Of a stretch of 64,000 nucleotides of DNA, positions 2,475 to 7,549 are shown one piece after another. Both the position numbers and the translations under genes were made by a program. Below the pieces are notes generated by a model. The model was given only the letters and a program-made list of their open reading frames with translations. It was not told where the DNA came from and made no database searches. The DNA is from Massilibacillus massiliensis (GTDB lineage Bacteria; Bacillota; Negativicutes; FLKF01): positions 2,263,894 through 2,327,893 of the forward strand of contig NZ_LT575483.1 in the NCBI RefSeq assembly GCF_900086705.1. Reading direction: 5' to 3'. The stretch's first letter is position 1; each line of letters opens with the position of its first letter.

Positions 2475-3686
2475 ATGAAAAAAAAGACCAACTATATTGT
2501 AAAAAAACGTGTTAGACAGCTAACGTGTGATTTTATGCATTTTTTTCAACGGGAGACAACGAGTGGGATTATACTGTTACTATGTGCAGTCGTTGCTATG
2601 GTAATTGCAAATTCTTCGTTGTTTGTAAAGTATGAGGCGCTATTGCATCGAGATATAAGTATTGGAATTGCAAATTTTTCTCTATCGATGTCCGTATTGC
2701 ACTGGATCAATGATGCGTTGATGGCCGTTTTTTTCTTTGTTATTGGGATGGAAATTAAGCGTGAGGTTTTATTTGGGGAGTTAAAATCATTGTCGGCAAC
2801 CATTTTGCCAATTGTTGCAGCCATTGGCGGTATGATTGTTCCAGCAGGGATATATATATTGATCAATTGGGGAGAGATTACAATTAGCGGCTGGGGTGTA
2901 CCAATGGCAACAGATATTGCTTTCGCCATTGGCATTCTTGCCTTTGCAGCTGGAAATGCGCCGCGTAGTATTGCTATATTTTTGACAGCTTTAGCAATAG
3001 TAGATGACCTCGGAGCAATTATTGTGATTGCATTATTTTATACGAGTAACCTATCCTGGATTGCACTACTTTTTGGCATGGGGTTTTTAATCATTGCATT
3101 TTTATTAAATCGTGCGAAGGTGCAGTTTATCAGTGCTTATATATTCAGTGGATTGCTTGCTTGGTATGCTTTTTTGCAAGCTGGTATCCATCCAACGATT
3201 GCCGGTGTAATACTTGGTTTTATGATACCAGCCAATGGGGAAAATTCGATGATGCATAAGTTGGAAACCATTCTTGGAAGATGGTCTTCTTATGCTATCA
3301 TGCCGTTGTTTGCACTTGCCAATGCAGGAATCCGAATTGACGCCGAAGCTTTTACAAGTATTTTTACGCCCGTTGGTTTAGGAATATTGTTGGGGCTTTG
3401 TCTCGGAAAGCCAATTGGCATTTTTGGCAGTGCTTACTTATTGATAAAATTCAAGCTAATAAAGATGCCGGAGAAACTTAACTTTTGCTATTTTGGTGGA
3501 GCTGGTGTACTCGGCGGAATTGGTTTCACAATGTCACTGTTTATCGCCTCATTGGCTTTTTCTGACCCGAAGATTTTGATGACAGCAAAATTGAGTATTA
3601 TTTGTGCATCGATATTGTCGGGGTTGATAGGGATTTTGATTTTTAAAATCATTGCATGGAACCATAAGGTGAAAAAAAATACATAA
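2475..3686 (+). CDS. nhaA: Na+/H+ antiporter NhaA
   Basis: 403-residue polytopic membrane protein. The NhaA core is clear: ATDIAFAIG with the aspartate near residue 147, and ALAIVDDLGAI with the paired aspartates near 177-178 that bind Na+/Li+ and protons. About twelve hydrophobic segments are visible and the C terminus is short and basic (HKVKKN). NhaA exchanges cytoplasmic Na+ for external protons in pH and sodium homeostasis. It stands alone, flanked by intergenic regions of roughly 295 and 190 bases. The length is normal and nothing is missing. Confidence 0.95.
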   Translation: MKKKTNYIVKKRVRQLTCDFMHFFQRETTSGIILLLCAVVAMVIANSSLFVKYEALLHRDISIGIANFSLSMSVLHWINDALMAVFFFVIGMEIKREVLFGELKSLSATILPIVAAIGGMIVPAGIYILINWGEITISGWGVPMATDIAFAIGILAFAAGNAPRSIAIFLTALAIVDDLGAIIVIALFYTSNLSWIALLFGMGFLIIAFLLNRAKVQFISAYIFSGLLAWYAFLQAGIHPTIAGVILGFMIPANGENSMMHKLETILGRWSSYAIMPLFALANAGIRIDAEAFTSIFTPVGLGILLGLCLGKPIGIFGSAYLLIKFKLIKMPEKLNFCYFGGAGVLGGIGFTMSLFIASLAFSDPKILMTAKLSIICASILSGLIGILIFKIIAWNHKVKKNT

Positions 3687-3808
3687 TTTTAAGAGTGGAT
3701 GTATTGATTGCCAAAATAAAACTATTTTTAGAAATTTGGTAAATAATTTTTCACGAGAAATCTGTTGGTTCATACTGACAAATACCGTTCTAGTTAAAAT
3801 AAAAATGC

Positions 3809-3837
3809 TTGACAAATATATCCATGAAATGTATTAT
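3809..3837 (+). promoter_or_regulatory. consensus sigma-A promoter of the rtcB-prfH leader
   Basis: TTGACA (3809-3814), exactly 17 bases, TATTAT (3832-3837). No other convincing promoter lies between here and rtcB: only 36 bases separate the last terminator from the rtcB start. This is therefore the likely promoter of the leader ORF and, by read-through, of rtcB-prfH. Confidence 0.75.
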
Positions 3838-3851
3838 TAAAAATAATCTAG

Positions 3852-3954
3852 ATATTAGGCTAAAGGAGTGTTTTATTATGTTGGTAATTGTTAATTTTGC
3901 GGTGAACGAAATTTAATAGTAAGTTTTTAGACAACCATAAGCCTAATATTTTTT
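3852..3954 (+). terminator. long-loop terminator T1 enclosing the leader ORF
   Basis: ATATTAGGCT (3852-3861) is exactly complementary to AGCCTAATAT (3940-3949), and six Ts follow (3949-3954). The 78-base loop contains the ribosome site and all 12 codons of the leader ORF. Because the left arm abuts the AAAGGAG ribosome site, a ribosome loading on the leader would compete with the stem. This is seen in sequence; the regulatory role is inferred. Confidence 0.6.
3878..3916 (+). CDS. 12-codon leader peptide upstream of rtcB-prfH
   Basis: ATG at 3878 follows an AAAGGAG site (3862-3868, nine bases away) and encodes MLVIVNFAVNEI before TAA at 3914. The peptide is mostly hydrophobic and has no run of one amino acid, unlike classical biosynthetic attenuator peptides. 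It sits between a consensus promoter and three terminators, the layout of ribosome-sensing leaders. It is not in any family I recognise. Translation is likely from the ribosome site, but function is inferred from position alone. Confidence 0.5.
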   Translation: MLVIVNFAVNEI

Positions 3955-3959
3955 GATGG

Positions 3960-3983
3960 CACGATAGGTTATCGTGTTTTTTT
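3960..3983 (+). terminator. terminator T2 in the rtcB leader
   Basis: Perfect 7-bp stem CACGATA/TATCGTG with a GGT loop, followed by seven Ts. A weaker hairpin (3984-4003, ATTGCCTT/AAGGTAAT) follows directly. Confidence 0.8.
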
Positions 3984-4007
3984 ATTGCCTTTTTTAAGGT
4001 AATCTAG

Positions 4008-4035
4008 GCCGCAGCTTGGTTGCTGCGGCTTTTTT
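4008..4035 (+). terminator. terminator T3 in the rtcB leader
   Basis: Perfect 8-bp GC-rich stem GCCGCAGC/GCTGCGGC with a six-base loop and six Ts, a textbook intrinsic terminator. It lies only 36 bases before the rtcB ATG, leaving no space for a new promoter, so rtcB expression must depend on read-through. Confidence 0.85.
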
Positions 4036-4071
4036 ATGTCATTTTAGCAATAGTTAATTAAGGAGAATCAA

Positions 4072-5139
4072 ATGAGCAAAATAAAAATAATTACCAACGA
4101 AAAAAATTGGTTAGAAGATACTGCAATAAACCAACTAAAATGTTTATCCGAGTTACCAAGTGTAATTCAAGCAGTCGGATTGCCGGATTTACACGCGGGA
4201 AAATCTCCGATTGGTGCGGTGATTGTAACAAAAGGATGCATATACCCACAGATTATTGGCGGTGATATTGGTTGTGGAATGGGGTTGTTTTCCACGGGAA
4301 TTGAACATCGCAAATTTAAGCTTGAACGTTGGGTTACAAAGTTAAATTGTATACGAGAGCTAATCGATGTTGAAACCATAAACCCATATAAAGAGCCAAG
4401 TCCAATTTATGATTTGGGAACGATTGGCGGCGGAAATCACTTTGCTGAATTTCAGGTGGTTGATAGAGTGTATGACAAAGAAAGCTTTGCAGCACTGTCA
4501 ATCGATGAATCTATGCTAATGTTATTGATACATAGTGGATCGCGTGGTTATGGGCAAAGTATATTAAATCGATTTGATAAAGCGCAAGGACTTATAAACA
4601 ATAGTAAGCAGATGCAAGACTATATGGCAGAACATGAGCAAGCAGTTGTTTGGGCGTCAAGGAATAGATCCATTGTAGCGAATAAATTGTTGCGTTATTT
4701 AGGATATACTCCACATATTGAAAAGATTATTGATTGTCAGCACAATTTTATAGAGCAAAGAAATGATGTATTTATTCATCGTAAAGGAGCTGTATCGGCA
4801 GAATTGGGAGCTGTAGTTATACCGGGATCCAGAGGGGCGCTTACCTATGTTGTAAAACCAACGGAAAATACTAAAATAACAGCGTATTCATTATCGCATG
4901 GCGCTGGTCGTAAGTGGGCGAGAAGTTTGTGTAAATCGCGCATTCGTGATAAGTATGACAGAAATACAATTCGTCAAACAAAACTGAAAAGCAAGGTAGT
5001 ATGCCATGATACTGATTTATTGTTTCAGGAGGCACCAGAGGCTTATAAAAATATTGATACGGTCATTGAAAGTCTCTTACAATTTGGATTAATTGAAGTT
5101 GTTGCTACGCTGCGGCCAGTATTGACATATAAGGGGTGA
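4072..5139 (+). CDS. RtcB-family RNA ligase, short form paired with PrfH
   Basis: 355-residue RtcB-type RNA ligase, shorter than classical RtcB. Conserved metal and active-site motifs are present in order: DLHAGKSP near 42, GGDIGCGMG near 63-71, GTIGGGNHFAE near 116, HSGSRGYG near 154, and SHGAGRKWAR near 275, which carries the histidine guanylated in this family. RtcB joins 2',3'-cyclic phosphate or 3'-phosphate ends to 5'-OH ends. Linkage to prfH (nine-base gap) is the arrangement known for the RtcB2-PrfH pair, which repairs ribosomes cleaved in the 16S decoding centre. An AAGGAG site precedes the ATG. Expression is probably controlled by the terminator-rich leader. Confidence 0.88.
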   Translation: MSKIKIITNEKNWLEDTAINQLKCLSELPSVIQAVGLPDLHAGKSPIGAVIVTKGCIYPQIIGGDIGCGMGLFSTGIEHRKFKLERWVTKLNCIRELIDVETINPYKEPSPIYDLGTIGGGNHFAEFQVVDRVYDKESFAALSIDESMLMLLIHSGSRGYGQSILNRFDKAQGLINNSKQMQDYMAEHEQAVVWASRNRSIVANKLLRYLGYTPHIEKIIDCQHNFIEQRNDVFIHRKGAVSAELGAVVIPGSRGALTYVVKPTENTKITAYSLSHGAGRKWARSLCKSRIRDKYDRNTIRQTKLKSKVVCHDTDLLFQEAPEAYKNIDTVIESLLQFGLIEVVATLRPVLTYKG

Positions 5140-5148
5140 TCAATAGCT

Positions 5149-5754
5149 ATGTTACTACAAATAAGTTCTGGAAAAGGACCCTTAGAATGCGAATTGGCAG
5201 TTGGAAGATTTTTAAAGGTATTAGAAAAAGAGTTTGATGGGCTAAAAATAGTAAGTCAGATGCAAAGTGGTTATTTGGATTGTTATAAATCAGTCATTAT
5301 TGAAATAAATAGCAAGCAAGCTAAAAACATTATTGGAACCATTCAATGGATCGTAAAAAGTCCGTTTAGACCAAAGCATAAGCGAAAAAACTGGTTTATT
5401 GGAGTCTGTGAAATAGAAAAAAATAAACAACAAAATTTTGATGGTACCCTTATTCGTTTTGAAACCTTTAGAAGTGGTGGAAAAGGTGGACAAAATGTGA
5501 ATAAGGTCGAAACCGGGGTGCGAGTTATCTATATACCTACTGGTCTTAGCGTTGTGTCAACGCAAGGGCGTGATCAATATACGAATAAAAAATTAGCTTT
5601 AATCAGATTGAATGAAATCATTATGGAGCAAAATTTTGCCCAAGAGCAGAAAATGAAGGAGGTTATGTGGATTCAGCACGAATTGGTAGAGCGCGGAAAA
5701 CCGATTCGTATTTATGAAGGAGATGGATTTAGGTTACGAAAATCTATATTATAA
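5149..5754 (+). CDS. prfH: peptide chain release factor-like protein PrfH
   Basis: 201-residue class-I release-factor relative with the peptidyl-hydrolysis motif GGQ at residues 113-115 inside RSGGKGGQNVNKVETGVR. The N-terminal codon-recognition domain of RF1/RF2 is reduced, as expected for PrfH. The C terminus is basic. PrfH releases the nascent peptide from ribosomes with damaged decoding centres so that the partner RtcB can reseal the rRNA. It is almost certainly co-transcribed with the ligase gene. Confidence 0.9.
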   Translation: MLLQISSGKGPLECELAVGRFLKVLEKEFDGLKIVSQMQSGYLDCYKSVIIEINSKQAKNIIGTIQWIVKSPFRPKHKRKNWFIGVCEIEKNKQQNFDGTLIRFETFRSGGKGGQNVNKVETGVRVIYIPTGLSVVSTQGRDQYTNKKLALIRLNEIIMEQNFAQEQKMKEVMWIQHELVERGKPIRIYEGDGFRLRKSIL

Positions 5755-5996
5755 TTCAAAGATTTCTTTTTCATAGTGAATAGTATCGTCGTGGAGTTTT
5801 GGATTTTAATTTGATTATTTGTAATATGATGTAGTTGTAAGTTTCTAATTTAATAGATTATAATAAATTTACGTTAATGAATGATTTAAATTAAAAAAAT
5901 GTGATACTAGGTCTTCCTATACATTTAAAAAGCTGATTTATTGAATTCCGTCAATATCGATAAGAAGATATAGGAGATTTTTGAGGATGTGATTTT

Positions 5997-6740
5997 ATGA
6001 AGAAAAATGCCATTATTTTATTGTGCTTCTTTCTTTGGGTGGCTGCCACAATATTGATATTTGGATGGGTCATACCTGTGATTATACAATTTTATTTACA
6101 TAATGATGAAGCGAGAGGGATTACACTGTTATTCATTTTTATTGGAGTGGTTCTTTTAAAACGATTTACGTGGCAGAATTATCTTGTATATGTTATTGCT
6201 GTATTCTCACTGATTGGAATGATAGGTGATACCACTGGCAATTTTGTGTATAACAAACCTCTTGAATGGCTGCTGTCTTCTTTTGGCGAATTACAGATTG
6301 TACAGAATATCTATAATTATGTACCGGGGGAATATGTTATTTCGAATGATCTTATACTTTTAGGTTCGGATGGATCGAAAGAACGGTTGAGTGAGATATG
6401 GTTGTATCTATACCGTTTTATACAATATTTAATAACTTATTCTATTTTGGGATCTTTGCTTAGCTTTATCATAGATAGATTACCCGCTAAGAGAATGGTA
6501 ATATTTCAAAAGGTAGAAAATGATGTTATGACGGAGGAATTAGCACACAAAGTAGCAGAAGAACTTAAACGCAGAGAAGACGAGAAAAACAGCAAGCTGA
6601 TAATTTCCGAGGATATCAAAGCAGAGCTTTTGAAATTAAAGAAAAATGGCGATCTTATTTTAGCAATTAAAGTAGTTCGAAAATATACGGATTTATCTCT
6701 GGGGGAAGCAAAGAAATTTGTCGAGGATTTGGAAACATAA
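5997..6740 (+). CDS. membrane protein with C-terminal L7/L12-like domain
   Basis: 247 residues. Three or four hydrophobic segments fill the first ~165 residues, e.g. AIILLCFFLWVAATILIFGW near 5-24, GITLLFIFIGVVLLK near 40 and FIQYLITYSILGSLLSFI near 140. A charged linker leads to a tail of about 40 residues (KNGDLILAIKVVRKYTDLS, then GEAKKFVEDLE) that resembles the C-terminal domain of ribosomal protein L7/L12, which recruits translation factors. The function of such membrane fusions is unknown. It follows 242 bases of gene-free DNA after prfH and has its own ribosome site (TAGGAGA, then GAGGATG). Confidence 0.6.
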   Translation: MKKNAIILLCFFLWVAATILIFGWVIPVIIQFYLHNDEARGITLLFIFIGVVLLKRFTWQNYLVYVIAVFSLIGMIGDTTGNFVYNKPLEWLLSSFGELQIVQNIYNYVPGEYVISNDLILLGSDGSKERLSEIWLYLYRFIQYLITYSILGSLLSFIIDRLPAKRMVIFQKVENDVMTEELAHKVAEELKRREDEKNSKLIISEDIKAELLKLKKNGDLILAIKVVRKYTDLSLGEAKKFVEDLET

Positions 6741-6805
6741 AATTTTGTTCATGCTTATAAGGGGATTATGATTTGAATATTTTTATAAAATGGAGATAAG
6801 TACAA

Positions 6806-7549
6806 ATGAACGGTGAAATGTACCAGATGTGCAATATTGTTGCAAGCGTGAAGCAAGCACTTAAAAATAATACTGTGTTTATCTTTGAGCCAGCATCATA
6901 TGAAAAATTCCTTGTTTTTCATATGATGTCGGCTGCTTGCTGTAAAGTTGATACGATAGAAAAATGGTTTGAGGAGTGCTGTAAAAAAGGCATTGTTGAT
7001 ATTAAGTTTTTAACACCAGTGAAAATGGATGAGTGGAATTTAGATATATTTGCAAATGCGCATTCTAATTTATTACTTTGTTATTATGCAAATGGATTGG
7101 TTACTTATTTTCAGGCAGATTGGAAATTCTGTGAATACGAAGAAGGTTGGGATATTACCTACACTGAATATGTTTGGAAAAATCCGTCGCAAGATAAACC
7201 AAAATTTCACGATAATACGAAGCCGTTTATAAAAATTTTGGAACAAATAGAAACATTGGCTCTTCAGCTTGAAGTTGACAACTTTGCAAGTTTATTCCGA
7301 AAAGCGATTTTAGCAGCAAAGGGAGAAATTCTTGCTGAATCTAAAATATCTATTCAATTGCCGGATCAGAATAAGAGACTTTTCCTTGCTGTTTCTGCCG
7401 CTTCTGTTTTTGGCGGGATGGGGTCTTGGAATGATCTTCCTCTTTGTATAGCGCATGAAATGAATTTGGTAAAAGAATATGAACAGTTAACTTCGGCTTT
7501 ACGTGATCAATTAACATTAGCGATACTTTATGCGATTAATGAGTGGTAA
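6806..7549 (+). CDS. hypothetical protein
   Basis: 247 residues with GGAG ten bases before the ATG. It is soluble-looking, with several cysteines in the first third (CCKVDTIEKWFEECCKKG near 45-62) and a C-terminal helical part containing a small glycine-rich stretch (SVFGGMGSWNDLP near 205). No signal peptide, membrane segment or catalytic motif that I recognise. It lies 65 bases after the L7/L12-like membrane protein and may be co-transcribed with it. Function unknown. Confidence 0.6.
   Translation: MNGEMYQMCNIVASVKQALKNNTVFIFEPASYEKFLVFHMMSAACCKVDTIEKWFEECCKKGIVDIKFLTPVKMDEWNLDIFANAHSNLLLCYYANGLVTYFQADWKFCEYEEGWDITYTEYVWKNPSQDKPKFHDNTKPFIKILEQIETLALQLEVDNFASLFRKAILAAKGEILAESKISIQLPDQNKRLFLAVSAASVFGGMGSWNDLPLCIAHEMNLVKEYEQLTSALRDQLTLAILYAINEW

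Follow-up and report, generated by a model that had tools for sequence, protein, structure and literature searches.

A conserved leader ORF upstream of rtcB2-prfH: a candidate ribosome-mediated attenuator

Introduction

The window, that is, the whole stretch of 64,000 nucleotides of Massilibacillus massiliensis DNA analysed here, carries an operon for an RtcB-family RNA ligase and peptide chain release factor H, preceded by a promoter, a short open reading frame (ORF) and several hairpins. This arrangement raises the question of how, and under which circumstances, transcription that begins upstream of the hairpins is allowed to enter the genes. The original prediction proposed a ribosome-sensing leader controlling rtcB-prfH, a reading supported by the comparative anatomy described below and by work on Pseudomonas aeruginosa, where armZ (PA5471), which encodes a PRK09588 protein, is co-transcribed with prfH (PA5470) and is subject to attenuation by the 13-residue leader PA5471.1 (PMC3516279, PMC12057347, PMC13041342). 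In that system armZ is turned on by an amber codon at position 3 of the leader, or by an unusable tRNA for codons 3-4 (PMC13041342). Leader-ORF control of rtcB2-prfH is already known from Pseudomonas, hence not new, a precedent that the original prediction had missed.

Anatomy of the leader and of the genes that it precedes

The features of the region are as follows, all on the plus strand.

3809-3837, +, promoter TTGACA-17-TATTAT, with 11 of 12 matches, found at the same place in five relatives
3852-3861, +, left arm of helix P1, ATATTAGGCT, adjoining the leader Shine-Dalgarno sequence (SD)
3862-3868, +, leader SD, AAAGGAG, kept in relatives
3879-3917, +, leader ORF of 12 codons, MLVIVNFAVNEI and stop, whose start lies 193 bp upstream of rtcB
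3900-3905, +, element A, the SD-like CGGTGA (GGUGA) within the ORF end, at a fixed distance before the stop
3930-3936, +, element X, GACAACC, a candidate antiterminator strand, invariant in class T (see below) and complementary to the T3 loop
3940-3949, +, right arm of P1, AGCCTAATAT, originally taken as the right arm of a terminator, T1
3960-3983, +, terminator T2, CACGATAGGTTATCGTG and a T-run (hairpin 3960-3976), conserved in classes T and X
4006-4035, +, terminator T3 (hairpin 4006-4031), with loop TTGGTT complementary to X and three pairs changed on both sides
4072-5139, +, rtcB2, RtcB-family RNA ligase (PRK09588; NF007153, 460.5 bits, cut-off 407; TIGR03073, 389.7 bits, cut-off 271.8)
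5149-5754, +, prfH, peptide chain release factor H (TIGR03072, 185.5 bits, cut-off 166.65)

A search of the same genome for a second RtcB found none. The consensus promoter, the leader ORF with its own SD and the arms that bracket it are present in the sequence as originally described. The promoter ranks best among 18 sigma-70-like sites in positions 3000-7000, a stretch in which 18.3 such sites are expected by chance, and the equivalent position in relatives L009, L011, L036, L037 and L038 holds TTGACA, 16-17 nucleotides and a TATAAT-like element. A scan for sigma-70-like sites found none on the plus strand between 3838 and 4071, in agreement with the earlier claim that the 36 bases between the end of T3 and the start of rtcB at 4072 are too few for another promoter. 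The leader folds more stably than 200 of 200 shuffled versions (z = -3.64), while terminator-like sites in positions 3000-7000 number 2, against 2.0 expected from shuffles, and an Rfam search of the leader yielded no score near the gathering cut-off for any family, riboswitches and T-boxes included. After the U-run, both T2 and T3 mostly carry a conserved motif resembling UUGCC, AUGCC or GUGCC, even where it is unable to pair (window positions 3977-3988 and 4032-4040; also L008, L036, L041 and L042).

The two arms at 3852-3861 and 3940-3949 are perfect 10-bp complements that enclose the leader ORF, and had been taken as a terminator, T1. That reading was abandoned: the loop would measure about 78 nucleotides, and the U-run that follows the right arm is missing in L009 (ATATTTAATTG) and L037 (AATAAGTTTCGG), where the helix itself is retained with two pairs changed on both sides. 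Because the U-run is not conserved, T1 is better read as what is probably a conserved helix, P1, and not a terminator. P1 is predicted to close over the ORF, masking both the leader SD and the antiterminator-like element X; since it brings these two elements together, X should be released when a ribosome occupies the SD.

Conservation of the leader ORF

RtcB2 relatives were collected from named genomes, from the window's own class (Negativicutes) and from other classes, and a leader was scored where an SD preceded a reading frame of 9-16 codons in which AGGU or GGUGA occurred 8-12 nucleotides ahead of the stop. Of 87 rtcB2 upstream regions, 48 carry such a leader, whereas shuffled sequences would yield 0.16 and randomly chosen real DNA 0.17, which excludes a chance origin. 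The margin over chance is approximately 300-fold, for a motif whose definition drew on some of these same regions. In the 31 Firmicute leaders that share this phase, the codon before GTG/GTA has G as its third base throughout while specifying eight different amino acids, and in L078, L108 and L155 the motif nucleotides are retained in another frame. To judge by these comparisons, selection on the leader acts on nucleotides more than on the peptide. An RNA model comprising the ORF end, X and T2 was run against 381 genomes of the class and matched only the three with a window-type rtcB2 leader, apart from one further match at chance level (E = 0.09). On sequence grounds, the promoter, the leader ORF, the long-range helix and terminators T2 and T3 together can be regarded as a real regulatory leader.

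Leader classes in Firmicutes and Gammaproteobacteria

Firmicutes show four arrangements, and Gammaproteobacteria a fifth. Class T includes the window together with L009, L011, L036, L037 and L038. The comparison of upstream regions of relatives that had been put forward as a check, aimed at leader ORF, arms and terminators, recovers P1, X (GACAACC), T2 and T3 in this class; the two further terminators that the original prediction placed after T1 are thus both present and conserved. In the class T alignment, five pairs are changed on both sides, two in P1 and three in T3, and the combined covariation score of the two helices (0.211, compared with 0.128 in shuffles) was equalled once in 500 shuffles.

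Class X (Pelosinus, Ruminiclostridium, Pseudobacteroides and others) carries GTAACC as its X element, followed by CACCTGA, which in several members pairs with TCAGGTGA beside the leader SD. Native P1 pairs score no better than crossed ones in this class, in a within-class test whose power is low, the elements being conserved. The class X element AGTAACCGTCACCTG was also likened to the 3' region of 16S rRNA, a resemblance better explained by the element being complementary both to T3 and to the left arm of P1. The upstream regions of L006 and L007, two members of the window's class, match those of Pelosinus loci L061 and L063, which identifies that class as Negativicutes.

Class H (Hungatella and relatives) is distinguished by pairing between the 5' arm and the rtcB SD (CUUCAUAAG/CUUAUGAAG; in L045, CUUUAUGAG/CUCAUAAAG). 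Class C (Clostridium, Tepidibacter) is devoid of terminators, and a single anti-SD segment, B, is contested by the ORF end (A) and the rtcB SD. In leaders of the Clostridiaceae type (L071, L073, L074, L077, L078, L084, L086, L088, L094, L133, L135, L144 and L145), the rtcB SD GGAGAGAA is repeated almost exactly at the end of the leader ORF, GGUGAGAGAA, and one anti-SD segment (UUCUCUC) lies between both SD copies, in the manner of a compact, terminator-free translational switch. The leaders of Gammaproteobacteria (Alteromonadales, Enterovibrio, Providencia, E. coli and an IncC plasmid) display the pairings SD:A, A:B and B:C.

Ribosome position and the proposed switch

The leader is probably a ribosome-mediated attenuator that controls rtcB2-prfH by reporting on the ability of an initiated ribosome to leave the start codon. 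When the leader is empty, or when the ribosome has already reached the stop codon, the 5' arm would pair with the arm that follows the ORF to form P1, which would hold X, located directly 5' of the right arm, away from its partner, and T2 and T3 would end transcription. A ribosome that has initiated and is stuck at about the first codon would instead cover the 5' arm and prevent P1 from forming, and the freed X would pair with the emerging T3 loop, and transiently with that of T2, allowing polymerase to enter rtcB2-prfH. Ribosomes cut in the decoding centre, of the colicin E3 type, which show this behaviour in vitro, would supply the stuck state, and the induced genes would rescue and reseal them. 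This model is grounded in anatomy, conservation, helix covariation and folding logic across species; antitermination itself, the passage of T2 and the natural signal are inferred.

Complementarity between X and the T3 loop takes different forms in different lineages: GACAACC/GGUUGUU in L036, GUAACC/GGUUAC in class X, UAGCCAC/GUGGCUA in L119, UACCAA/UUGGUA in L117, AAAAUCG/CGGUUUU in L056 and GACAACA/UGUUGUC in L059, part of this list having been picked out by eye. When native X and T3 partners were compared blind with crossed ones, the difference was only weakly significant (p = 0.066 for all leaders, 0.034 with one per lineage). Nascent RNAs extending up to the T3 loop were then folded for 23 terminator-type leaders. 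Mean pairing scores for P1 and X:T3 were, respectively, 0.79 and 0.20 with no ribosome, 0.02 and 0.67 with a ribosome at the start codon, 0.61 and 0.39 at codon 3, and 0.71 and 0.19 at the stop codon. X:T3 scored above shuffled T3 in 18 of the 23 leaders (Wilcoxon, 8e-5, for leaders that are related and with kinship uncorrected). In the window's own leader, P1 is opened only by a ribosome at about the first codon, is mostly closed again at codon 3 and stays closed with a ribosome at the stop, while X:T3 with a ribosome at the start reaches 0.30, no better than with shuffled T3. Of the mutually exclusive pairings expected for a leader of the PA5471.1 type, segments 1:2 (P1) and 3:4 (T3) are supported by the class T alignment, and 2:3 (X:T3) is supported across the family, not in the window alone. 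As for the proposal that a stalled ribosome opens the structure, the folds bear it out for a stall at about the first codon and speak against it for one at the stop.

How T2 and T3 could be bypassed had been left unexplained. The pairing of X with the T3 loop offers a candidate for T3, and T2 is accounted for in part: incomplete T2 follows the same trend (0.17 without a ribosome, 0.48 at the start and 0.19 at the stop), and in most leaders the equilibrium favours complete T2, so that passage of T2 would have to be kinetic. Antitermination is absent from the equilibrium fold of the complete leader, in which complete T3 always wins; it appears only in nascent-transcript folds, and the result therefore depends on kinetics. 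The SD-like motif of classes T and X is a candidate either for holding a terminating ribosome or for competing for X.

In Gammaproteobacteria, A:B scores 0.12 with no ribosome, 0.56 with a ribosome at the start and 0.00 with one at the stop; the corresponding values for the masking pair B:C are 0.51, 0.29 and 0.60 (means of 15 leaders; another run took 14). These folds suggest the same switching logic, acting on the rtcB ribosome site rather than on tandem terminators. Those of class C are consistent only with a ribosome at the end being OFF, and do not clearly fit an OFF state in the absence of a ribosome. Taken as models, the folds point to one logic implemented in different RNAs, in which a ribosome stuck at the start would mean ON, and one at the end, or none (outside class C), would mean OFF.

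Regarding the signal, E3-cut ribosomes form nearly normal initiation complexes, their first A-site binding is approximately halved under competition, and they are expected to yield essentially no peptide beyond about 8 residues (PMC2615495). On a leader of 10-15 codons, such ribosomes would stay near the start (ON), while intact ones would reach the end. Decoding-centre damage could thus be the natural signal, and drugs that slow the early codons would act likewise. A wider reading, to which we would give rather less than an even chance, is that the leader serves as a self-test of ribosome integrity, with a runway of 10-15 codons that intact ribosomes finish (off) and on whose first codons ribosomes damaged in the decoding centre halt (on). 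Such a test would be common to Firmicutes and Proteobacteria through different folds, by antitermination or by exposing the site where ribosomes load on rtcB, and would have been the original role of the antibiotic-induced efflux regulator of Pseudomonas.

Alternative explanations

The strongest competing account shares the switch of the start-codon model and differs from it in the signal alone: the leader would be a general sensor of slowed translation, responding alike to drugs, tRNA shortage and damage without being tuned to cut ribosomes, and rtcB2-prfH would be another stress operon. The induction of Pseudomonas armZ by many ribosome-targeting drugs and translation-disturbing mutations, together with the lack of conservation of leader codons and peptides, brings this account close to an even chance, even though the controlled genes repair and rescue ribosomes and, among the class genomes, the window-type leader lies only upstream of them. 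A different possibility moves the decisive stall to the end of the leader, where the SD-like motif and the stop would hold a non-terminating ribosome, the substrate of PrfH, while another ribosome, waiting behind it at the start, keeps P1 from forming; ON would then report failed termination, and PrfH would turn the signal off. PrfH is indeed a release factor, ORFs of 10-15 codons span roughly one ribosome footprint, and AGGU/GGUGA is found at a fixed distance before the stop in both Firmicutes and Gammaproteobacteria. However, P1 stays closed in the folds with a ribosome at the stop, in class C and Gammaproteobacteria a ribosome there covers A, and the OFF pairing is the one predicted to be favoured, and an amber codon at position 3 suffices for ON in Pseudomonas. 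An end stall is, on these grounds, unlikely.

It is less probable still that T1, T2 and T3 are ordinary tandem terminators, with an incidental ORF and with rtcB-prfH expressed by constant leak. The finding that terminator-like sites are no commoner than in shuffles and the shuffle-level X:T3 score of the window would fit such a view, but conservation of the leader ORF, P1, X and T2 reaches across long distances, the ORF is approximately 300 times as frequent as expected by chance, and a homologous leader has been shown to regulate in Pseudomonas. Two familiar leader types were considered and rejected. An amino-acid attenuator of the trp or leu type is at odds with the leader ORF, which holds no run of regulating codons and whose codons vary between species; an arrest-peptide leader of the ErmCL type is at odds with peptides that diverge and with nucleotides that are kept in other frames (L078, L108 and L155).

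Relation to known leaders and further loci

In ermC-type leaders, the gene is on when a ribosome stalls at a defined leader position. The bmrB-bmrCD system of Bacillus subtilis (PMC4191407) resembles the window in its own-SD leader ORF, its alternative hairpins and a stall at a defined place that means ON, the last being a prediction for the window. Both of these systems serve genes for drug efflux or resistance, whereas the window combines a non-conserved peptide with ribosome-repair genes. A close counterpart is PA5471.1-armZ, with which the window shares an operon for a PRK09588 RtcB-like protein and PrfH, a short leader ORF (13 residues, compared with 12 codons), terminators proposed between leader and gene, and ON upon an early-codon block, in the window as a prediction. 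Several traits of the PA5471.1 type are found here: an own-SD leader of about 13 codons, 150-250 bp upstream, with T2 and T3 in between. The window differs in its sequence, in the P1 helix that encloses the ORF, in an X element after the stop and in two tandem intrinsic terminators, and while ArmZ is an anti-repressor of MexZ, no such role is implied for the RtcB2 of the window. In two Pseudomonadales genomes the leader has 13 codons, MQALITLCRSRLA, and elements A, B and C of the gamma type; by analogy, PA5471.1 would belong to the gamma leader class.

A 2025 review describes leader-peptide control of an anti-repressor as apparently unique to MexXY (PMC12057347). By contrast, the present comparison indicates common use of a leader ORF to control rtcB2-prfH in many Firmicutes and Gammaproteobacteria, including E. 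coli. This links an antibiotic-response circuit to rRNA repair and suggests a way in which the repair genes could remain off up to the point at which ribosomes are cut. The literature searched, which covers few subscription journals, contained neither the Firmicute leader forms, nor their recurrence across phyla, nor the reading as a test of ribosome integrity.

The operon of E. coli ATCC25922 comprises the same two gene families and protects against colicin E3 (PMC9223846); the passages found there do not treat its regulation. At the E. coli chromosomal locus L148 (NZ_CP098223.1, 2270-2441), rtcB2-prfH lies downstream of dinB-yafP and is preceded by a leader ORF, MKNPLSMTLCRPFQD, with elements A, B and C and covarying pairs A:B (GCAGAC/GUCUGC) and B:C (CCAUUU/AAAUGG); in the folds, the target of the gamma leader is the rtcB ribosome site, in place of the tandem terminators of the window. 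With a ribosome at the start, the A:B score of L148 is not above shuffles. No description of this leader ORF was found in the literature searched. The conjugative IncC plasmid NZ_CP086440.1 of Klebsiella pneumoniae (L149) carries rtcB2-prfH with a gamma-type leader ORF, MQNTSTSFAGLVR, and sul1 directly after it, and to judge from this gene order is a case of a mobile ribosome-repair operon within a resistance region. A further leader type is present in the Pseudomonadales loci L158, L159 and L160, with SD GGAGGUAAAA, a longer leader, and a CAAGGCA near the ORF end that is complementary to the downstream UGCCCUGUC.
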